DNA from: Flavobacteriales bacterium
GTDB lineage: Bacteria > Bacteroidota > Bacteroidia > UBA10329
Length of the DNA: 35,132 bases
Assembly: GCA_018402015.1 (NCBI GenBank)
Contig: JAGYJL010000026.1
Coordinates: forward strand, 1 to 35,132
Reading direction: 5' to 3'
Position numbers and translations under genes: made by a program. The notes under the pieces were generated by a model. The model saw nothing but the letters and a program-made list of their open reading frames with translations. It did not search any database and was not told the origin of the DNA. Positions 14,110 to 30,248 of the stretch are shown piece by piece; position 1 is the first letter of the stretch; every line of letters starts with the position of its first letter.

Positions 14110-15095
14110 ATGGCAATACTTGATTTTCAAAAACCTGATAAAGTAATCATGCTCAATTCAGATGAGCGTGTAGGAGAATTCGAATTCCGCCCACTTGAGC
14201 CAGGTTACGGTATCACAATAGGTAACTCACTCAGAAGAATACTTCTTAATTCATTGGAAGGATTCGCTGTAACATCTTTGAGAATCGATGGTGTTGATCA
14301 CGAATTCTCTACTGTTAATGGTGTTGTTGAAGATGTGACCGAGATAATCTTGAACATGAAGCAGGTTCGCTTTAAAAGACAGATTGACACCCAGGAAAGC
14401 GAAAGAGTTTCTGTAAGTGTATCTGGTCAGGATAAGTTCACTGCTGGTGACATTGGTAATTCCTTACAGTTCCAAGTATTGAATCCTGAATTGGTTATCT
14501 GCCACATGGAGAAATCTGTGAAGCTGAACATGGAGTTGACAATCGACAAAGGTCATTGGTTTACGTGCCAGCAGAAGAGAACAAGCCGGCAAGTGCTCAG
14601 TTGGAACTATTGCAATCGATGCCATCTTCACTCCAATAAAAAATGTGAAATACTCTATCGATAACTTCCGTGTTGAGCAGAAGGCCGATTATAAGAAGCT
14701 GATGATGGAAATAACAACTGATAGTTCAATACATCCAAAAGATGCGTTGAAGGAAATGCAAGATTCTGATGCATCATTTCATGTTGTTCTCTGATGAAAG
14801 ATAGCTCTTGAAACGGAGATCGAGAAACCTACTGAGAATTCGATGAGAATGCATTGCACATGCGTCAACTGTTGAAGACCAAATTGGTCGATATGGATGC
14901 TCAGTAAGAGCATTGAATTTAGCAGAAGCAGCAGACGTTGAAACTGCTGGGTGATGTTTAGCATCTTTTTAGCAAGAACGACCTGTTGAAGTTCAGAAAC
15001 TTTGATCTCTTACCGAGCTTGACAAATACTTGTTCATGCAAAGAACTTGACCTTTGGGATGAACATATCCAAATACAGATTAGACAGAAAAGTAA
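14110..15095 (+). CDS. rpoA: RNA polymerase alpha subunit (3' half frame-broken)
   Basis: Alpha subunit, assembly platform of RNA polymerase. The N-terminal domain is intact for about 150 residues ([59 protein letters not shown]). After about 14555 the frame shifts repeatedly, but homology continues: [48 protein letters not shown], then ETEIEKPTE and [13 protein letters not shown], and finally the alpha-CTD helix-hairpin-helix traces [10 protein letters not shown] and [11 protein letters not shown]. The literal frame stops early at 14664 (184 residues). About 330 residues are expected. Because RpoA is essential, the breaks are almost surely sequence errors. End approximate. Confidence 0.92.
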
Positions 15096-15134
15096 TTGAA
15101 TGTCAGGGCTTCTGGCCTCTCAACAATTTGAGGA

Positions 15135-15678
15135 ATGAGACATAAGAAAGGTTTTAACCATTTAGGTAGAAAAAGAGAAAGAGGCACAGGAGAGCAATGC
15201 TGGCCAACATGGCAAGTTCGCTTATCAGGCATAAACGAATAACCACCACATTAGCCAAAGCAAAAGCTTTGAGGTCTTATGTGGAGCCATTGATGCAACC
15301 CAGAATCTAAAGATGATGCTACGCACTCAAGAGTTGTGTTCAGCTATCTTAATGATAAGGAAGCAACAGCTGAGTTGTTCAGAGAAGTATCTCCCTAAAG
15401 TGGGAGGCGTCCAGGTGGATACACACACGTATTATCAAGTTAGCAACAAGAGTTGGTGACAGTGCTGACAACAATATGATTGAATTGGTAGATTTTCAAC
15501 GAACTCTTAGTTAAAAGCTAAGCCTAAGAAGGCAAGGAAAGTAGAAGAGGTGGCAGTAGTTCTGCTGCTGCTCTCCGAACTGCTCCTGCTGCTGAGGTAG
15601 TTGAAACCTCCAGCTGTCAAGCTTCTGCAAGTGATGATGACTCCAAAGGAAGAAAGGTGGAGAAGGAAGAAAACATAA
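15135..15678 (+). CDS. rplQ: 50S ribosomal protein L17 (frame-broken), with Ala/Ser/Glu-rich tail
   Basis: L17 lies near the tunnel exit. The ATG at 15135 opens [13 protein letters not shown]; the sequence then continues in shifting frames as [73 protein letters not shown] and NMIELVDF, the full L17 core. After this, readable frames give lysine-rich [12 protein letters not shown], then Ala/Pro-, Glu- and Ser/Asp-rich segments, an extended C-terminal tail of the kind found on many Bacteroidota L17 proteins. End approximate (TAA at 15676-15678); many indels. Followed by a strong terminator. Confidence 0.88.
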
Positions 15679-15703
15679 TAGTTGAAACGTGTTTAAAAGT
15701 TTG

Positions 15704-15737
15704 AAAAGGACGAACCGATTCCAGGTTCGTCCTTTTT
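15704..15737 (+). terminator. Intrinsic terminator of the ribosomal block
   Basis: A perfect 13-bp stem (AAAAGGACGAACC pairing with GGTTCGTCCTTTT) with a 7-base loop GATTCCA and a T-tract overlapping the 3' arm. It sits about 25 bases after rplQ and 24 bases before the carA start, so carA probably needs either read-through or a separate promoter not recognised here. Confidence 0.9.
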
Positions 15738-15760
15738 AATTTACTTAAACCCAAAAGACA

Positions 15761-16874
15761 ATGAAATACCAAATTAGAGCAGACGCCATTCTCTTGCCAG
15801 AAGATGGAACCATTTTTAGAGGACAAGGCAGCTGGTAAGATTGGCACCACCACGGGTGAGATGCGCTAATACTGGTATGACCAGGTTACCAAAGAGATTT
15901 TTACCGACCCATCTTACTTCGGCCAGATAATGGCCAACAAGCAAGTGTTCATATAGGTAATTACAGTGTAAGTCCACAGAGATGTGGAATCAGGAAGGAA
16001 TGAAGATCGAGTGGTTTGGTGTGCAAATACTTCTCTCGAACTATAGTCGTCAAGCGCAATTGGGAATATTCAAAATTATTTCGAAGAAAATCAAGGTTGT
16101 CGGAATTTCAGATGTGGATACACGTGCCATCGTACAACACATTCGCGATAAAGGGGCAATGAATGCCATTATCTCATCCGAGGAACTGGATGTGGAAATT
16201 CTCAAGAAAAATTGGCTGAGGTACCTTCAATGGAAGGTTTAGAGTTATCGTCTAAAGTGTGCACTAAAGAATCTTACTTCTTTGGAGATGAGAATGCAGA
16301 TTTTAGAGTTGCTGTGCTCGACATTGGAGTAAAGAAAAACATCCTTCGCTGTCTTTCAGACCGTGGATGTTATTTGAAAGTGTTTCCGATGGATACACCT
16401 TTCGATGAAATCAAAAGTTGGAATCCAGATGGATTTATGATATCGAATGGACCAGGCGACCCTGCAGCCATGCCAAAAGTGAGCGAGACGGTCACCCAAA
16501 TGATAGGTTCGGGTATTCCTGTATTTGGAATTTGTCTCGGACATCAGGTTATGGCTATAAGTCAAGGAATTCCTACGTACAAGATGCACAACGGTCATCG
16601 AGGGATCAACCATCCCATTAAGAATATGGTAACTGGGAAATGTGAGGTTACGTCACAGAATCACGGATTTGTGGTAGATAGAGAAGCATGTGAGAAACAC
16701 GCTGATATGGAGATTACACATGTGCATTTGAACGACAACACGGTGGCTGGTCTGAGACTGAAAGATCGTCCAGTGTTCAGTGTGCAGTACCATCCAGAAT
16801 CTTCACCAGGACCGAACGATAGCCGCTACCTTTTCGATCAGTTCGTTGAGAACATGAAAATGGTTTCGGCCTGA
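15761..16874 (+). CDS. carA: Carbamoyl-phosphate synthase small subunit (5' third frame-broken)
   Basis: Glutaminase subunit that passes ammonia to CarB for carbamoyl phosphate (pyrimidine and arginine synthesis). From the ATG at 15761 the start reads [17 protein letters not shown], then homology continues through several frames ([42 protein letters not shown]). One missing A near 16210 joins EILKKK to LAEVPSMEG. From 16212 on it is clean: the class I glutamine amidotransferase domain has [10 protein letters not shown], the nucleophile Cys in GICLGHQ (codon 16533-16535), and the His/Glu pair in [10 protein letters not shown]. Total about 370 residues, a normal length. carB is not in the window. 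Confidence 0.94.
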
Positions 16875-16914: not shown

Positions 16915-19654
<2,740 letters not shown>

Positions 19655-19701
19655 CGAGCGAATTTAAACAACTCGCCAAGCTTGTGGTTATTTTAGCGCA
19701 G

Positions 19702-21516
19702 ATGGGATATAGCTCGTTAGAACAGTGTGTCAGGGACCTTGAAAAACACGGTCATTTGATTCGAATTACCGAAGAGGTAGATCCGAATTTGGAGATGGCT
19801 GCTATTCACTTTCGAGTATTTGAGAACGATGGTCCGGCACTTCTTTTTGAAAATGTTAAGGGCTCAAAGTTTCGAGCTGTTTCCAATCTATTCGGTTCCG
19901 TAGAGCGTAGTCGGTTCATCTTTCGCGACTCGTTGGAAAGGGTTAAGAGATTGGTTCAACTGAAAGGTGATCCATCGTTGCTAACGAAAAACCCTAGTTG
20001 GTTTGTTTCAGCATTGCGAGGAGGAGTTCATGCGCTTCCATTGAAATGGAAAACCGATTTTGAGGAAGTTTCGGTATCGGCACTTCCGCAGATAAAATGC
20101 TGGCCCAATGATGGTGGCCCATTTGTTACGCTTCCGCAGGTTTATTCTGAAGATATTGATAAGCCAGGCGTCTTGAATTCCAACGTAGGGATGTATCGTG
20201 TGCAGTTGGGAGGAAACGAGTATCTCCAAGACAAAGAAATTGGTTTGCATTATCAATTGCATCGAGGAATCGGTGTGCATCAGACAAAAAGCAATAAAGC
20301 TGGTCAGCCCTTGAAAGTTGCCGTATTTGTTGGCGGCCCTCCTTCGCATTCCTTTGCGGCTGTTATGCCGTTACCCGAAGGATTACCTGAAGTGGCTTTT
20401 GCCGGAGCTTTAGGTGGTAGGAATTTCCGGTATTTCAAAGAAGATGGATTCACAGTTTCGTCAGATGCTGACTTTGTGATTCTCGGAGAGGTTCATCCGA
20501 TGGAGAACAAGCCAGAAGGTCCTTTCGGGGATCATTTAGGCTATTACAGTCTTAAACACGATTTTCCGGTGATGCGTGTTAAGAAAGTTCTCGCTAAAAA
20601 GAATGGTATTTGGGCGTTTACCGTTGTTGGTCGTCCTCCACAAGAAGACACTAGTTTCGGAGCGCTGATTCATGAAATTACTGGGTCAATCATACCACAG
20701 ACCATTCCTGGATTGCACGAAGTAAATGCAGTAGATGCAGCGGGTGTTCATCCACTTTTGTTGGCAGTAGGTAGCGAACGTTACACGCCTTATTTGGAAG
20801 TTGAGCGACCACAGGAATTGCTTACTACCGCAAACGCTATCCTTGGCTTCAATCAAATGTCATTGGCTAAATTTCTATTCATCATTGCCAAACAGGATGA
20901 TGGAACGCCAAGAGCCAAGGATGAAGAGGCATTTTTCAAGTATTTGCTCGAGCGTATTGACCTTACCCGAGACCTGCATTTTCAAACGAAAACAACCATT
21001 GATACACTTGACTACAGTGGCTCTGACCTCAACAGCGGGTCTAAACTTATTGCCGCGGCCGTTGGAGGAAAGAAAAGGGATCTTGCCACAGAAATACCTG
21101 ATATCACTTTACCTGAAGGTTTCCGAAACCCTCGGGTGGCATTCAGTGGTGTTCTGATTATTGAAGCGGCTGCTTATACTGATGGAAAGGATATTCAAAA
21201 ATTGACTTCAGTTCTGGATGGTCAAAAGAATAGTCTAAAAGGGTTTCCCATGATTGCTGTTGTGGACGATAGCGAGTTTGTAGCTCGCACACTGAATAAT
21301 TTTCTGTGGGTCACCTTCACTCGAAGCAATCCTTCGCACGATATTCATGGAGTAGGAGAGTTTATTGAAAACAAACATTGGGGCTGCAACGGCCCAGTAG
21401 TGTTCGATGCTCGAATCAAGTCTCACCATGCGCCTCCACTTATCAAAAGTCCTGAAGTTGAAGCCCGGATAAGTAGGCTAGGAGTTAAGGGCGCTTCTTT
21501 ACACGGAATCATATAG
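19702..21516 (+). CDS. UbiD-family (prenylated-FMN dependent) decarboxylase
   Basis: Reversible aromatic or alpha,beta-unsaturated acid decarboxylase using prenyl-FMN made by UbiX-type enzymes. I start at the ATG at 19702 (MGYSSLEQCVRDLEKHGHLI), where family homology begins, not at 19648, which would overlap the divergent gene. That gives 604 residues, longer than the roughly 500 of E. coli UbiD and closer to the 'menaquinone biosynthesis decarboxylase' branch common in Bacteroidota. Cofactor-pocket motif NSNVGMYRVQ (N161, R166) and the catalytic-acid region PEGPFGDHLGYY (E272) are present. No ubiX, men or mqn neighbour is visible, so the substrate is uncertain: quinone pathway is a guess. 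Confidence 0.88.
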   Translation: MGYSSLEQCVRDLEKHGHLIRITEEVDPNLEMAAIHFRVFENDGPALLFENVKGSKFRAVSNLFGSVERSRFIFRDSLERVKRLVQLKGDPSLLTKNPSWFVSALRGGVHALPLKWKTDFEEVSVSALPQIKCWPNDGGPFVTLPQVYSEDIDKPGVLNSNVGMYRVQLGGNEYLQDKEIGLHYQLHRGIGVHQTKSNKAGQPLKVAVFVGGPPSHSFAAVMPLPEGLPEVAFAGALGGRNFRYFKEDGFTVSSDADFVILGEVHPMENKPEGPFGDHLGYYSLKHDFPVMRVKKVLAKKNGIWAFTVVGRPPQEDTSFGALIHEITGSIIPQTIPGLHEVNAVDAAGVHPLLLAVGSERYTPYLEVERPQELLTTANAILGFNQMSLAKFLFIIAKQDDGTPRAKDEEAFFKYLLERIDLTRDLHFQTKTTIDTLDYSGSDLNSGSKLIAAAVGGKKRDLATEIPDITLPEGFRNPRVAFSGVLIIEAAAYTDGKDIQKLTSVLDGQKNSLKGFPMIAVVDDSEFVARTLNNFLWVTFTRSNPSHDIHGVGEFIENKHWGCNGPVVFDARIKSHHAPPLIKSPEVEARISRLGVKGASLHGII

Positions 21517-21664: not shown

Positions 21665-22804
21665 ATGAGAACGGAACAAAAACAGTGGACTGCCGAAGGC
21701 GGTTGGCAAGAAATCAAAGAAGCAGGCATCGGAAATTCTGCGGATTTGGTATTCGTATTCGGATCACGCACGCTGCTAGAAGATGCATCAAAATACGATG
21801 AGATAAAGTCGTTCTATCCATCAGCGCACATTATCATGGGCAGCACTTCTGGCGAGATCATGGAGGATCTTGTTTATGATGACTCCTTGGCTGTTACAGC
21901 AGTGGAATTTGAAAAGACGAAACTTGAGGTTGCATCCATGAATATCAATGATGCAAAAGATAGTTTCGATGCAGGTGTTCAAATTGCCAAGAAGTTAGGA
22001 GGCGCAGGCCTTGCTCATGTTTTTCTTCTTTCAGATGGACTTCATGTAAACGGTAGCGAAATTGTTAAAGGTATTAACGCCACGTTAGAAGACCACGTGC
22101 CATGCACAGGTGGCTTGGCCGGAGATGCGGCCAACTTCGAGAAAACACTTGTGGGCTTAAACGCAGCACCAAGCGAAAATCAGATTGTAGCGGTTGGATT
22201 CTACGGTAGCAGTTTAGAAATAGGTTATGGTTCCGTTGGGGGCTGGGATAATTTCGGTGCCGAGAGATTAGTAACGCGTTCTGAAGGAAACGTGCTGTAC
22301 GAGTTGGATGGACAGTCGGCATTGGACCTGTATAAAATGTATTTAGGAGACAAGGCTTCCGAATTGCCAGGATCAGCACTTCTCTTCCCTCTTGGTCTCA
22401 AATTCGATGAGGATTCGGATACCATTGTTCGTACAGTTTTGGCTGTAGATGAAGAAAAGAACAGTATGACCTTTGCTGGAGATATTCCAGAAGGCTGCTA
22501 CGTGAGATTGATGAAGGCTAACTTCGACAAATTGATTGAAGGAGCTAATCTAGCAGCTGAACACACCTCGCATAAAGGTGGAAATTCCAGCGATAAATTG
22601 GCCATTTTGATAAGTTGTGTAGGTAGGAAATTGATTCTTGGTCAGCGAATTGACGAGGAAGTTGAGGCTGTGCAGGAAGTGCTTGGAACGGGAGCTACAT
22701 TAACAGGATTCTATTCTTATGGCGAGATTTCGCCCGTGGTGGAGTCCGCACGTTGTGAGCTGCACAATCAAACCATGACCATAACCACGTTCGCGGAGGC
22801 ATAA
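21665..22804 (+). CDS. FIST domain sensor protein
   Basis: Cytoplasmic FIST_N plus FIST_C protein, a family predicted to sense small ligands (amino acids have been proposed) and usually linked to signalling outputs. 379 residues with no signal peptide or membrane segment. FIST_N (about 25-220) contains LVFVFGSRTLLED, IIMGSTSGEIMEDLVYDDSL and PCTGGLAGDAANFEKTLVG with a cysteine at 147. FIST_C (about 225-370) contains LYELDGQSALDLYKMYLG, ILISCVGRKLILGQR and GFYSYGEISPV. The stop is one base before the GTG of the phosphatase gene, so the two are surely co-translated and likely partners. Confidence 0.92.
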   Translation: MRTEQKQWTAEGGWQEIKEAGIGNSADLVFVFGSRTLLEDASKYDEIKSFYPSAHIIMGSTSGEIMEDLVYDDSLAVTAVEFEKTKLEVASMNINDAKDSFDAGVQIAKKLGGAGLAHVFLLSDGLHVNGSEIVKGINATLEDHVPCTGGLAGDAANFEKTLVGLNAAPSENQIVAVGFYGSSLEIGYGSVGGWDNFGAERLVTRSEGNVLYELDGQSALDLYKMYLGDKASELPGSALLFPLGLKFDEDSDTIVRTVLAVDEEKNSMTFAGDIPEGCYVRLMKANFDKLIEGANLAAEHTSHKGGNSSDKLAILISCVGRKLILGQRIDEEVEAVQEVLGTGATLTGFYSYGEISPVVESARCELHNQTMTITTFAEA

Positions 22805-22805
22805 A

Positions 22806-23792
22806 GTGTATAGCAAGCTTCTTAATAGGCAGATACGAAAGTACCTGAGAGGTGCCCCCATCCCTAAAGAGATGGAGGGCCTTTTAGGTATTATCAGTGA
22901 TGCGTATGAGCATTATGAAGAGAATTTGGAATTGATGCAGCGTGCTATTGAATTGAGTTCAATAGAGTTGAATCAAGCCAAGAACAAGGTTACGTCTGCG
23001 CTTTCTCAGTTGAACGAAAAGAATGAAGATCTTCTGAGCAGTATTCATTATGCAAGACTGATCCAAGAAGCCATTCTTCCATCAGAGGAGAGGTTCCGAA
23101 GTTGTATTCCAGAATCGTTTGTTTTTCACCAGCCTAGAGATATTGTAAGTGGAGATTTCTATTGGCTTCAGGAGTATAACGACAAGATCCTGGTAGCGGC
23201 AGTTGACTGCACTGGCCATGGTGTGCCAGGAGCATTCATGTCTATTATTGGTAATAATGCGCTGAATGCTGCCGTGCGGGAAGAAGGTCTCACAACGCCA
23301 TCGCTTATACTTGACAGCCTGAATAGAGGAGTTAGTTCCACGCTTCGAAGTCAGTCTAGCGCAGACAGCGGTGCCGGAATAAAGGATGGAATGGATATAG
23401 CGATCATCAGTATCGATTATAAGAACAAGCAGATACAATACTCAGGCGCGTACAATCCCCTGTACATAATACGGGACGGACACTTGTTGGAAACAAAAGG
23501 AGACAAGTTCCCAATTGGATTGGCGCAAGATGACGACCTTAGGTTGTTCACCAATCATACATTCGACCTACAAGAAGGCGATATGGTTTACATTTTCTCT
23601 GATGGATATCCAGATCAATTCGGTGGGCCGTTAGGTAAGAAATTCAAATACGATAACTTCAGGTCGCTACTTTTCAAGATTCACGAGTTAAGCCCTCGAA
23701 AGCAGCTTAAGATGGTTCAGCAGGCTTTTGTGGATTGGAAACGGGATCTACCGCAGCTTGATGATGTTCTTTTGATCGGAATGCGCCTTTAG
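22806..23792 (+). CDS. SpoIIE-type PP2C serine/threonine phosphatase with FIST-partner N-terminal module
   Basis: Predicted metal-dependent phosphatase, a likely output for the FIST protein upstream. GTG start at 22806, one base after the upstream stop; 328 residues. Residues 1-60 (MYSKLLNRQIRKYLRGAPIP; then AYEHYEENLELMQRAIELSS) form a helical segment resembling one I know from the start of FIST-linked histidine kinases, followed by a probable coiled coil (about 50-80). The PP2C domain (95-328) has the metal-binding aspartates in SGDFYW (D117) and DCTGHGVPGAFMS (D134), MDIAIISID, and FSDGYPDQFGG. Targets are probably anti-anti-sigma-like proteins by family analogy, but none is encoded nearby. 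Overlaps the convergent gene by 3 bases. Confidence 0.9.
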   Translation: MYSKLLNRQIRKYLRGAPIPKEMEGLLGIISDAYEHYEENLELMQRAIELSSIELNQAKNKVTSALSQLNEKNEDLLSSIHYARLIQEAILPSEERFRSCIPESFVFHQPRDIVSGDFYWLQEYNDKILVAAVDCTGHGVPGAFMSIIGNNALNAAVREEGLTTPSLILDSLNRGVSSTLRSQSSADSGAGIKDGMDIAIISIDYKNKQIQYSGAYNPLYIIRDGHLLETKGDKFPIGLAQDDDLRLFTNHTFDLQEGDMVYIFSDGYPDQFGGPLGKKFKYDNFRSLLFKIHELSPRKQLKMVQQAFVDWKRDLPQLDDVLLIGMRL

Positions 23793-25619
23793 AGCAGCCG
23801 CACCTCCATTTCTGTTATCGTCAGTCGTTCTCCTTTTGGAGACCATGGAAAGATTTTTAGTGTTCCAGCTTCTCCTTCAACGCTCTTCAGTTCGTAGTGA
23901 AAAACGCCCCAACTTGGCGAATTGGCGTTGAATTGTATGCCGAAGGGATCCGATTCCCAGCTGTACTTTTCATCCGTGTTCTCTTGCTCGTAAACCAGCT
24001 GTATTTCGCTTGAATCTGCAATAGAAGAACAGTTTAGGAACACAGTAAGTTCAGAGAAGCCCGCATCACGCAGCGAGTCAACATCAACGGAAAAAGTAGG
24101 GCCGTAAGGGCTTTCAATATCCATTAGGTATTTGTTGTCTCCAGCAGTATCAATTCGGATCTTTGCTGGGTCGAAGTTCCAAGTGCTGTTCTTTTCGAAT
24201 CGAAATGGAATTATCGTCCAGTTCGGGTTTCCTCTTCGGAACATCATAACCTCCGAATTGAAGTACGATTTCCGCTTTACTTCAACAGGAAACCTCTCTT
24301 TTATTACAGCTTCTATTTCTGGAACTTGATTTACCGTAGACCACGCGTAGATCAGAAATTCATTTGTTGAAGTATCGACCATCGTTTTCAACTCAGCTAG
24401 ACCATTTTCGTCTGTAGTACGATATAGATCGAGTTTAGTAGATCCTTGTTTTTCGATATAATAATCGATGTAGAACGGAAAGTTGAAATCGCCAATGAGC
24501 AAAGCATCATTCTTTACTTCATCATTCCATTCAACGATAAATTCTGCCAATTCTTTGAAAACGCCAAAATGATTCGTCTGATAGAACTGTTTTCCAACAA
24601 CGGTACTCACAAGCGTAATACCCAATAGAACGTTGACAGCTGCTTTGGAGAGTTTTGTTTTTCCATCGTCCCAGTAAGAAAACACGAACACAAGCAGGAA
24701 TGGAAATGAGAACAGAAGTGTGCTGTTCTGCAACACAGGATTCACGTTTCTCGAATAGAAGAATCCGACTAAAAAAGGAGTGAGAAAAGTAATAGCGGCA
24801 GCACGTGATTCACGAACGATATCTTCAGTTTTGAATACGAAAAATCCCGTTGAACCAATAAGTACTGTACCTAAAGAGAACGGCAAACGATTCGTTGAAA
24901 CGTAATATATATATGCTTCACAGCAATCGTTTCTGGAGGCCCAGGCACTGACCAACGCCTCCTAAGCTCAGTTGATGAAGGGAAAATCGGAAGTAAGGAA
25001 GATAAAGGACAAAGCCCCAACCAGTGCAAGTAGATAGAACCTCAGGCTTTTCCCTTTAACACGAAGATTCCAGTCACAACGAGAATGGCAGCAACCAATG
25101 CAGCGAAATAGTGCGAATAGGCACAATGCCAAACTGATTGCCAGCCAAATGAAATGCTAGGTTTCTCACGTTGTCTTTACAATCCATTCAAAATGTTGCC
25201 GCCATTAACGTGAACAACATTCCCAATGCATATGGTCGTGCAATTCGGCTGTAAAGAATCGGAAACTCAGTGGCAAACGCAACGGCGAAGCAATCCAGCC
25301 GAAGTGCTGATCAAATTCTTTTCCCAACCGGAACATGAAATAGGTGAAACAATTCCGGCCACAACGAACGATAATCTCGCCACAAAAGCGCATTCCCAGA
25401 AACATTGGGTCGCCTTGCCAAAGAACAACTTGAGCAGCAGCTGGATGGCGTCAATCGAACTCCGTTCATGATCGAATCGGAGAATGAATCAGAATTCAAA
25501 CGAGCTAAGGCACTTAACTCGTCATTAGAGAAGTGAGAAGTCCCAGAAATTGTAAACACGGAGAATTGCCCCGATAAAAGGATAAGCGCAAGTATGACCT
25601 TTTCGGTCTTACCCAACAT
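23789..25619 (-). CDS. Second membrane GT-C type glycosyltransferase (5' third frame-broken)
   Basis: The clean part (24950 to 23789) has several membrane helices, then a 250-residue soluble domain with beta-rich C-terminus. Upstream of 24950 the same gene continues in broken frames to an ATG at 25619: MLGKTEKVILALILLSG, SNDELSALARLNSDSFSD, MNGVRL, then RPNVSGNA/FWECAFV-like and FRLGKEFDQHFGWI fragments, and YSRIARPY-like and MDCKDNVRNLAF pieces. The DELSAL and MNGVRLD region is the periplasmic loop of ArnT/PMT-like transferases. Reconstructed length about 610 residues. The start overlaps the rlmB stop by about 11 bases. Not closely similar to the gene at 18.2-19.65 kb. Confidence 0.78.
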
Positions 25620-26353
25620 GCGCAGCTTGTCTCAATCTTTCAAACAGGATGTTGGTGGCGACAGATACGTTCAACGAACCTGTATTTCCGGCCATTGGAA
25701 TGTTCACATGTTCTTTTTGCACTTCAAAGGCCTCGCCAATACCATCTTCTTCCGAACCCCTTAATGATTGCCATGGGCCCAGAAGAGATCACTTTGTAGA
25801 TATCGTCTTCCACCTTTTTACAGACATGCTACAACACGTCAGCTCGGCTTCTTGCAGGTTTCACTTCAAGAGAGAATACTGACCTGTTCTGCAAATTGGA
25901 ATGTTGAAAATGGCATAGCAGAACTTTACAACATACAGGTGTCATTGCGCTTCCTTTAATTGGTATAAGTATGGCGTGAACTCCAGCACACTCGGCCGAT
26001 GGAGCAGATCGCCCGAGCTTTCCTACATCAGAAACGATCGAGTACAAGGACCAACGGGATTCGCCACTTTCAATTACTCGATCTCCACCCTTTCTTCAAA
26101 ATCCTGATATTCGATAGGAGAGAGGAGTGCAATTACACCTTGATGGTTCTTGCTGGCCAAGCCGAGCTTCTCTTGTGGCACTTCTGAAACGGAATACGTT
26201 TGCCTTTCAGCGTTCGTTTTTATATCGGTAATGGCGGGTTGGTGGTCCCCTTTTCCAAGAAAACCTTTTCTATCACAACACCAGCTTCCAATCGCCTCCA
26301 TAACGGGATGAATGCCAAAGACAATGTTCTGTTCCAGTTTCGTTTTCTCACAT
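25609..26353 (-). CDS. rlmB: TrmH/SpoU-family 23S rRNA 2'-O-methyltransferase, RlmB-like (frame-broken)
   Basis: SAM-dependent knotted methyltransferase; RlmB methylates G2251 of 23S rRNA. Reading across frames gives the N-terminal substrate-binding domain start ENIVFGIHPVMEAI, then VIEKVFLEKG, SEVPQEKLGLASKNHQGVIA, then SECAGVHAILIPIKGSA, and the SAM-knot motifs GPMAII, SEEDGIGEAFEVQKEHVNIP, MAGNTGSLNVSVATNILFER and LRQAA. This order and spacing match RlmB of about 245 residues. Probable start ATG at 26351-26353; stop TAA at 25609-25611 in CATGTTGGGTAAG, which also contains the ATG of the downstream glycosyltransferase. Many indels. Confidence 0.85.
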
Positions 26354-26366
26354 AGCTAGTTTTAAT

Positions 26367-27049
26367 TGATGGCGAAGATACTTTGCTCAAATCGCGGTAG
26401 CAAGTATTGAAGCTTGGAACGCTGTTAACCAGTTCATCAAGGTGTTCGAAGGCCGCGTTGGACTGAAGGTTCCTTAATTGATGTCCTGAAATCTTCCGCC
26501 TGGAATTGATGTAATAATCGATCGAGCCTGTTGCATTTCTTCTATAACGTGCTCACGAAAATTAAGTCAATAATCCACCGTCTTCAATTTCATCAAACCA
26601 TTCGGCATAATATTCCTCGTCGAATAATGGAAATTGAGCACGTTTTTCACCGATAAGAATGAATTTATTGATTCCCTCATAGGTCATGGCTCAATGATAT
26701 CACGCTTCAGGATGCGCTGATATCGTTATACAGTAGGTCGTTCCATTTCGCCAATGAATTCGATAATGGTGAAACCCTGTTTCGTAATCGGCATAAAAGC
26801 ACTTTTAGGAAAAGCGTGGGAGAGTCAATGCTGTCCCACACTGTGGATGAAGTGCAAAATCGTAAATGTGATCCGTGAATTCGAACTCGCTATGCTCACG
26901 TCCATAGAATGGAGAAAGCATGTCTTCCTCTACAATGTAGTAATCGCGCCAGCGGTAATATGGTTCGATGGAATGCATTTCAATGAGCGAATATGCAAAT
27001 GATGGAATAAGCGAATTGTACACCGGTTTCATTGCACTAATTACTTTCA

Positions 27050-27050
<1 letters not shown>
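26367..27050 (-). CDS. Conserved protein of unknown function (frame-broken)
   Basis: Starts with ATG at 27050, overlapping the murQ stop in a TAATG junction. The first 80 residues are readable (MKVISAMKPVYNSLIPSFAY; SLIEMHSIEPYYRWRDYYIV; EEDMLSPFYGREHSEFEFTD; HIYDFALHPQ), then the sequence continues in other frames as FTIIEFIGEWNDLLYNDI, MTYEGINKFILIGE, DEEYYAEWFDEIEDG and FREHVIEEMQQA to about 26370. It is rich in Tyr, Trp, Phe and acidic residues, soluble, about 220 residues. It resembles conserved hypothetical proteins I recall from Flavobacteriales, but I know no function. Ends approximate. Confidence 0.6.
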
Positions 27051-27834
<784 letters not shown>

Positions 27835-27836
<2 letters not shown>

Positions 27837-30248
27837 ACGCGCTTTCCGTACGAAAATGTTCGGAAACTTGGCCGGATGAAACTTACTCATTATGGCATAT
27901 GCGGCTTCAACCATGTCTTCAACGCTTGGCTTGCTAAGAGTAATCACCATCCGTTCGTAGGCCGTTCGATGCGCTTGAGCTGTCAAGGTTTTTGGTTCGC
28001 TGTCAAAGAGTAGAAATAGCCTTTCTGTTCCTCCACTATCTTTTGCAGGATGTAAGCTTAGAAGCTCCGCCTGGCACGTCTTCATCAATCACCAACAGGC
28101 GATTGGTCTTTCAACGACTCAACAATTTGCGTGATTGGTGTCGAATGGAAGCAAGGTCTGCACATCAATTAGTTCGGCAGAAATTCCCGCTTCCGCCAAT
28201 TCTTACAAACCTTCAAAGCGGGAGTTCACACAAGATCAAGCGTGACAATAGTGAGGTCTTTCGCTTCTTTCAGTACTTCTGGAATTCTAATGGCGTTTGA
28301 ATTCGCCCAAATTCGATGGAAGTTTTCCTTGGTTCTGTACCCGTTCAAGGGGTTCAATGAGCAAATCCTGGATGCATCTGAAGCAAGAAGCGTGTTGTAG
28401 AAACCAGCTGCTTGTGTCATGTTTCTAGGAACGCAAACATGAATGCCGCGCAATGCGTTGATGATCATGCCCGCAGGCGAACCTGCGTACCGAATTCCTT
28501 CCAAGCGGTGACCGCGTGTTGGATGATCAGTGGACATTTCTGGCCGCCTTTCGTTCATATTGTAGCGAAGCAAGATCATCGCTAAGCGGTTGTAGACCGT
28601 AAAGCAAATAGTCAAGTACTGAATTTCTGGTGGGCGAGGCCACGAAGTGCCATCCCGATTCTTGTCCCATGATGCTCGCCTCGCGAATTCCCACATCAAA
28701 AATGCGATGATCGCCATGCTTTTTCTGCAAGCCTTCAAATCCTTGATTTACTCCACCAATTCCTCCAAGATTCATCACACCAAAAGCAACCACATCGTCT
28801 CGATGAAAGATGCTTGCTATCAAGTTGTTGAGCAGCACTTCGCGGCCGTCAATCAGCTTTGCATCGCTATCATATTCTGGAGCAACGGCTGCAATTTTCG
28901 GTGCGCTGTTCGGGGGTCTGACTTTCCAAAAACGAGTTGTAACGCTCAGCGTTGATCGACTGCTGGTTTTCAGCCATTCAGCCAATTTTGCCGTGTTCGC
29001 ATCTTCTCTTCTTCCTAATTTCAACAGAGCTCTTCGGGCTGTGCCGATCACTTCTTTTCTACTCGGAGCAAAACCCGTATTCAAACCTTTCGCAAGGTCT
29101 TCCAGACCAGCCGTTTGCAGCATTGGAATGAGCGCATCTCGTTCGGCTTCAATCTCAGAAATGAAGTTTTTCCAAGCAGCATTCTTTTGCTCTTGAACTG
29201 ATTTTTTGGCTTCCGTCTCAATTGCATCGCAATCTTCGGCTGTGGCAATTCCTTTGCTAATTATGAATTCGCGCAGCTTCTTAACGCAGTCAAATTCATC
29301 TTCCCAAGTCAAACGCTCTTTGCTCTTGTAGCGTTCGTGCGAACCCGAAGTGGAATGACCCTGTGGTTGCGTTACTTCCTCTACGTGGATCAATACTGGA
29401 ACGTGCTCTGCTCTGCAGAATGCTATTGCTTCTTCGTAGGTCTTTACCAAATGAGGGTAATCCCAACCTTTGGTCTTGAAAATGCGGATTCCGGTTTTAT
29501 CGGTGCTTCCTTTCTCAAATCCACTCAGGGCTTCGGAAATACTCGCTTTTACAGTTTGAAATTCCTTAGGAACGGAAATCCCGTAACCATCATCCCAAAT
29601 GGAAATAGCCAATGGAACTTGCGTGACCGCAGCGGCATTCATGGTTTCCCAAAAGTGGCCTTCCGATGTGCTGGCATCGCCAATTGTTCCGAAAGCAACC
29701 TCATTTCCCTTGTTGGAGAATTGCGTAAAGCCATGCAACGCCTTGTTCTCTCTGTAGAGTTTAGAGGCGTGCGCCAAGCCAAGCAAACGAGGCATTTGAC
29801 CTGCAGTAGGAGAGAGGTCGGATGCACTGTTTTTCTGTTCCATCAGGTTTCTCCAAGAACCATATTCGTTGATGGAACGCGTAGAAAAATGGCCGTTCAT
29901 GCTTCTGCCAGCAGATGAAGGATCTGCTTCCAAGCTTGGATGTGCGTAAAGCTGCGCGAAGAATTCCTGAACAGTTAAGAGACCGCAGGCCATCATGAAT
30001 GTTTGATCGCGATAGTAACCAGAACGGAAATCGCCATTCTGGAAGACTTTAGCCATGGCAATCTGCGCAAGTTCTTTGCCATCTCCGAAGATTCCGAACT
30101 TGGCTTTGCCCGTAAGTACTTCCTTTCTTCCTATCAAACTCGCCTGACGACTTTCGTTCGCCAAACGGAAATCCTTTAGAACTTCCTGCTTGAACTCTTC
30201 TTTGCTCAGGGCTTTATCTGTGCCAGTTTTCACGTCTTCTTCTGTCAT
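27835..30248 (-). CDS. Fused alpha/beta 2-oxoacid dehydrogenase E1 component (3' part frame-broken)
   Basis: Thiamine-diphosphate E1, probably of branched-chain 2-oxoacid dehydrogenase type; exact substrate unproven. I start at the ATG at 30248 (MTEEDVKTGTDKALSKEEFK) because the upstream extension to 30326 would cross a terminator hairpin. The alpha part is clean: YYRDQTFMMACGL, HFSTRSI, and the ThDP site GDASTSEGHFWE (190-201) to WDDGYGIS (D219, D220). The beta part begins near DGREVLLNNLIASIFHRDDV, GGVNQGFEGLQ and DVGIREASIMGQ, then breaks after about 28740 and continues as LDYLLYGLQPLSDDLASLQY, RGHRLEGI, CVPRNMTQAAGFYNTLLASD, LNGYRTKE, SEPKTLTAQAHRTAY and KPSVEDMVEAAYAIMSKF to about 27835. 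About 800 residues. Confidence 0.88.

Follow-up and report, generated by a model that had tools for sequence, protein, structure and literature searches.

A FIST protein encoded beside a SpoIIE-type phosphatase whose N-terminal helical leader recurs on the enzyme partners of one FIST clade

Stand-alone FIST genes beside a cytosolic signalling enzyme without a sensor of its own, as in the locus described here, are known from NosP and its kinases NahK and NosK (PMC12570481, PMC8846402). NosP binds its kinase in two-hybrid assays and alters autophosphorylation (PMC12570481, PMC8846402); the adjacent kinase NosK is inhibited, more so with NO, and about 130 of its N-terminal residues contain no recognised domain (PMC12570481). 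In Bacillus subtilis, RsbT activates RsbU via the RsbU linker. As proposed for our locus, control of a SpoIIE-type phosphatase is exerted by a partner in trans, by way of a helical N-terminal domain and a coiled-coil linker, and kinases and GGDEF enzymes can carry this input too (PMC12143880). In the SiaABCD system of Pseudomonas aeruginosa, the phosphatase SiaA (PDB 6k4e) dephosphorylates SiaC, the fold of which resembles that of anti-sigma-factor antagonists (PMC7647112).

We analysed a stretch of 35,132 nucleotides (the window), which is a whole contig, C128, of a Flavobacteriales draft genome (3.08 Mb, 83% complete). According to the open reading frames and the Pfam domains, a FIST_N/FIST_C gene and a PP2C gene with a GTG start lie one base apart, just as the first-pass annotation had read them, Table 1. 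The position of a GGAGG inside the end of the FIST gene, 6 nt ahead of the GTG, suggests that the two genes are translationally coupled. The pair is also present in the genus relatives carrying this FIST, with gaps of 2-3 bp in five of them, and it recurs in other families too; this is a genuine locus, intact and conserved. A UbiD-family decarboxylase gene (19648-21516) lies immediately 5' of FIST, and genus relatives and one genome of another family have such a gene directly upstream of FIST as well (L008, L009, L011, L019, L020, L025). Two other parts of the window, 14110-16212 and 24955-28300, contain repeatedly broken reading frames: an rpoA ending at 184 aa, pieces resembling ribosomal proteins and a glutamine amidotransferase, and frame-shifted fragments of several enzymes and a glycosyltransferase. 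These look like assembly indels, and the FIST and phosphatase genes are unaffected by them.

Table 1. Features of the FIST-phosphatase pair, in window coordinates.
Feature	Position	Strand	Basis
FIST protein, 379 aa	21665-22804	+	ORF call; C-terminal signature SCVGRK ... CELHNQTMTIT
FIST N domain	21743-22315	+	Pfam PF08495, 168.5 bits (gathering score 23.2)
FIST C domain	22319-22735	+	Pfam PF10442, 136.2 bits (gathering score 28.5), residues 219-357
C318, invariant	22616-22618	+	Conservation in alignments A2 and A4
C364, nearly invariant, and H367, invariant	22754-22765, 3' of FIST C domain	+	Alignments A2 and A4
GGAGG, Shine-Dalgarno-like	22795-22799	+	Read from sequence; inside last FIST codons, 6 nt 5' of GTG
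SpoIIE/PPM phosphatase, 328 aa, GTG start	22806-23792	+	ORF call
Helical leader LLNRQIRKYL...AYEHYEENLELMQRAIELSSIEL, putative FIST-partner domain	22806-22991	+	Leader profile and 42-row cross-phylum alignment A6
Coiled-coil linker (LNEKNEDLLSSIHYARLIQEAILPSEE)	22992-23105	+	NF038263 from residue 29; 6k4e from residue 60
SpoIIE/PPM (PP2C) domain	23181-23786	+	Pfam PF07228, residues 126-327, 70.3 bits (cut-off 25)

Both domains of the first protein exceed their Pfam gathering scores, which makes it a FIST protein. The NosP equivalog model NF041558 has a cut-off of 450 and gives it 55.9 bits, which places it in a different FIST subfamily. The model of a relative's FIST matches the FIST domain of human FBXO22 (PDB 8ua3, 8s7e; Foldseek E 7e-11, TM 0.63 by target length), which has the same fold. 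This match supports the domain assignment only: FBXO22 is a ubiquitin-ligase substrate receptor, has about 9% identity and is without a leader partner. C318, C364 and H367, which are conserved in the whole clade, may be candidates for ligand or redox sensing. We placed FISTs scoring under 300 with the clade profile outside the clade of the window protein; their partners differ. Solo FISTs of the clade were seen on plasmids. One (46.9% identity; L059, 4476-5642), on a conjugative Legionella anisa plasmid, has efflux genes adjacent and no leader gene downstream, and others are on plasmids of Legionella longbeachae and L. sainthelensi. In another FIST subfamily, a single protein of 727 aa is a fusion of FIST to a histidine-kinase-like C-terminus (L055, 1517-3697, in G324).

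The second protein has the metal-site motifs SGDFY, DCTGHG, SDGYPDQFGG and LDDV, which align with the SiaA structure 6k4e, so that it belongs to the SpoIIE-type PPM phosphatases; SGDFY sits just 5' of the edge of the Pfam match or within it. As the acidic metal-site motifs are intact compared with 6k4e, the phosphatase is probably active. The same structure is its best sequence match in the PDB, and SiaA is its best NCBIfam match, linker included (NF038263), although the 178.6 bits obtained are far from the equivalog cut-off of 700. Residues 29-328 align to model positions 367-657, leaving the first ~366 positions of SiaA unmatched, and the SiaA model enters the leader only from residue 29. 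Unlike in SiaABCD, siaC is absent beside the window phosphatase, while the genome does hold SiaC-family genes. The linker is common to SiaA-like and other SpoIIE proteins, and paralogues align from residue 21-69 on.

The leader consists of about 62 residues (1-62). No Pfam or NCBIfam model describes it; sets of 18 and 42 leaders were compared with Pfam, and RsbU_N was not among the matches of either. A 64-position leader profile matches 22809-22991 with an E-value of 3.6e-25, the window locus being in its training set (A1). This is the single match in the genome, and the other SpoIIE proteins found there are without a leader. We define the leader family by a profile match at the N-terminus of a gene beside a clade FIST, and the window phosphatase falls within it. 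The consensus is HxLLxRQIKKxxG...P.E...FL..V...Y..xDxDRxLLERSLELSSxEL. Among 42 sequences from many phyla (A6), Q6 and E51 are invariant, and L3, R5, Y31, D37 and S49 nearly so. AlphaFold models were obtained for naturally adjacent FIST-leader pairs of two relatives (L067, L086), joined by reading through the stop codon. Phosphatase-only rows became misaligned in the structure alignment and were left out of it. In the tethered chains, with pLDDT of 91.6 and 90.7, the leader is predicted to be a short first helix followed by a helix of ~66-70 residues that continues into the linker. The profile match and these models are consistent with the earlier description of about 60 helical residues opening the phosphatase.

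FIST is present in 103 of 395 Bacteroidia genomes, in which 85 leader matches (E below about 1e-6) were taken forward. Most of them, 69, begin 476-574 bp after a FIST domain on the same strand. Among the remaining 16, two are contig-split pairs with the end of the FIST cut on the same contig (L039, L048), and two begin at contig ends (L042, L046). FIST was not found in the genomes of leader matches L052 (G002), L047 (G201), L054 (G249) and L050 (G349). Three genomes (G346, G129, G179) have an unlinked leader kinase together with an unlinked clade FIST that lacks an adjoining leader gene. By genome, 74 have both leader and FIST, 5 only the leader, 29 only FIST and 287 neither (Fisher p 1.7e-49), and one of the five leader-only genomes, G300, is a contig-edge case. 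Starting from the sensor instead, 29 out of the 30 top Bacteroidia FISTs are linked to a leader gene (28 out of 29 when the window locus is excluded), and the same leader opens these neighbours, those that continue as a phosphatase as well as those that continue as a PAS/kinase protein.

Since 18 Bacteroidia loci of this survey had served to train profile A1, an independent profile, A6, with no Pseudomonadota sequences in its training, was run on 299 Pseudomonadota genomes. Here 49 of 56 matches lie 483-667 bp downstream of a FIST. Some matches are partial (model positions ~20-64), their first helix being followed by a longer loop; that these are generic signalling helices was rejected, as they lie 609-667 bp downstream of FIST. 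We also took the 80 best FIST relatives from all bacteria, picked regardless of their partners. A leader gene is found directly downstream in 77 of these and directly upstream in one (L125), in a set that overlaps the Bacteroidia one (L062, L063, L066 and L091 match G067, G223, G167 and G086), so that the counts are not independent. For L100 and L124 the leader is absent from the whole genome; together with G046, G016 and G310 they are the clade members without any leader. The leader-FIST pairs carry labels, mostly from MAGs, of Bacteroidota, Ignavibacteria, Planctomycetota, Nitrospirae, Nitrospinae, Proteobacteria, Elusimicrobia, Omnitrophota, Acidobacteria, Cyanobacteria, Patescibacteria and Syntrophomonas. 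A leader profile that finds proteins without any FIST association, which the first-pass annotation had considered, is not what we obtain, most matches being FIST-linked in both groups. Judged by sequence, the leader marks enzymes that are paired with one FIST clade in many phyla, and is therefore probably the plug by which FIST controls different enzymes.

The enzymes behind the leader were classified by local sequence comparison and motifs, not by a curated domain scan of each partner. So classified, they are histidine kinases in most Bacteroidia cases, and 64 kinases, 4 SpoIIE, 1 EAL, 1 GGDEF, 1 GGDEF+HD-GYP, 3 cut and 3 unclassified in the all-bacteria set. A SpoIIE output follows the leader in 19 Bacteroidia genomes from four families (f1, f4, f23, f42); FIST and PP2C are thus not rarely adjacent in related genomes, and the Ser/Thr phosphatase output proposed earlier is real and recurrent. 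The output is a phosphatase in all 7 genus members carrying this FIST clade, while the only FIST of an eighth, G091, is weak and dissimilar. Mapped onto a tree of 127 FISTs, the phosphatase output requires two changes, of which well-supported branches force one, and the c-di-GMP enzymes require three; the phosphatase is confined to Bacteroidota in the sampled FISTs. According to this distribution of sequences, the output domain is exchanged behind a constant sensor-leader pair.

FISTs of other subfamilies come with other segments. In Pseudomonadota, the kinases that follow NosP-type FISTs have the segment LxKIxxALMxRVER...YxLFQxAVxLEExVRxRT (A7); a third leader type (A8) stands behind some Bacteroidia FISTs. 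Homology of our leader to either is not supported, the hhalign probabilities against A6 being 1-2% (about 1% for the NosP-type segment). As NosP-type partners carry a different leader, ours is not a universal dock for FIST. The statement in the first-pass annotation of a similar leader on FIST partners holds for this clade, in the all-bacteria and Pseudomonadota sets alike, and fails for the NosP-type and other FISTs, whose leaders cannot be aligned with it. In L219 and L215, a partner with a third helical leader type (ADKEITILEFKLDRTEKVKRTT...) follows three FIST genes in tandem, which belong to another subfamily.

The precedents of NosP-NosK and RsbT-RsbU favour a direct control of the partner by FIST. 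The locus differs from the first in its FIST subfamily and in its output, a Ser/Thr phosphatase, and from the second in that FIST is unrelated to RsbT; with FIST as the neighbour gene and no RsbU_N on the 18 and 42 leaders, it is not an RsbT-RsbU module. The activation of RsbU by RsbT through its coiled-coil linker is the closest known mechanism. We propose that the cytosolic FIST protein is the trans-acting sensor of a two-gene signalling module and would bind its partner at the N-terminal helical leader, the partner in this locus being a dimeric SpoIIE-type Ser/Thr phosphatase. The ligand state of FIST would alter the coiled-coil linker behind the leader, and this change would set the switch helices of the phosphatase on or off. 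FIST would thus play the role of RsbT and the leader that of the RsbU N-terminus, without homology to either. Elsewhere the same FIST-leader input would have been spliced onto histidine kinases, GGDEF, EAL and HD-GYP enzymes, the leader being an exchangeable, FIST-specific input domain. We consider it quite probable that the two genes form such a module, with FIST controlling the SpoIIE phosphatase through leader and linker. The contact between FIST and leader, the gating by a ligand, the direction of control, the ligand, the substrate and the steps from contact to activity are what we infer within it. We also lean, somewhat more cautiously, towards the leader as an undescribed, phylum-spanning docking domain by which clade FISTs plug into kinases, c-di-GMP enzymes and, in Bacteroidota, phosphatases, which would make this locus a FIST-gated phosphoprotein switch.

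Several properties of the leader would also fit a dimerisation or coiled-coil segment that is co-inherited with the FIST operon, FIST acting at another site, for example the linker or the phosphatase domain, or without contact. The leader is predicted to be helical and to run into one long helix, hydrophobic residues occupy many of its conserved positions, the partners with which NosP-type FISTs work carry an unrelated leader, and the covariation between FIST and leader is weak (mean-field DCA of 159 pairs, 130 effective; top-25 inter-protein score 0.93 vs 0.78-0.85 for within-clade shuffles). However, the invariant or nearly invariant polar residues R5, Q6, D37, S49 and E51 are more than a coiled coil would require, the association of leader and FIST persists in the three genomes where the two are unlinked, and the other SpoIIE proteins of the genome manage without it. 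We therefore regard a mere co-inherited segment as unlikely.

SpoIIE-family phosphatases are known for dephosphorylating STAS anti-anti-sigma proteins, and a classical sigma-factor partner switch would give the phosphatase such a substrate. The genome has two small STAS proteins; as stated earlier, no STAS or anti-sigma gene adjoins the pair. Against such a switch, the one protein with HATPase_c_2 above the family cut-off is encoded next to a response regulator and, at 333 residues, is not of RsbW size, and SiaA is the nearest NCBIfam model to the phosphatase. The genome further contains five SiaC-family genes (E down to 3.5e-45), one on C152 in a SiaB-SiaC-phosphatase operon and one on C113 in a SiaB-SiaC pair that has no phosphatase beside it, SiaB being assigned from position and length, not from a family search. 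A sigma-factor switch here thus seems improbable, and the STAS or anti-sigma target presumed in the first-pass annotation is less likely than a SiaC-type one. Our best, if tentative, guess for the substrate would be a phosphoprotein of the SiaC type, encoded at another place in the genome; no SiaC gene was found beside a FIST-phosphatase pair among the pairs seen. The only FIST-leader locus seen with an adjoining SiaC is L048 (G302:C8), a run of a FIST cut by the contig end, a leader kinase, a receiver protein, and a SiaC-family gene (4e-24) preceded by a gene that is SiaB-like by position. That FIST and phosphatase merely share an operon, without functional contact, is very improbable, since FIST and leader remain paired across phyla with changing outputs, so that the pairing of FIST is with the leader and not with the phosphatase.

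As a probable FIST-controlled phosphatase module, the pair is of a known general kind, its output is new, and its input domain is absent from Pfam and NCBIfam. No paper on a pairing of FIST or NosP with SpoIIE or PP2C, and no report of a phosphatase output for FIST, was found in the literature searched; as this covers subscription papers thinly, the negative result speaks only weakly for novelty. For the RsbT-RsbU and PAS systems, the still open question has been raised of how sensors of one kind can drive kinases, phosphatases and c-di-GMP enzymes alike (PMC12143880). In the FIST-leader family, one sensor and one short input domain come with at least four output types, a natural series in which the outputs have been exchanged several times along the FIST tree, and the leader family gives a concrete idea of what the unassigned N-termini of FIST-controlled enzymes could be.
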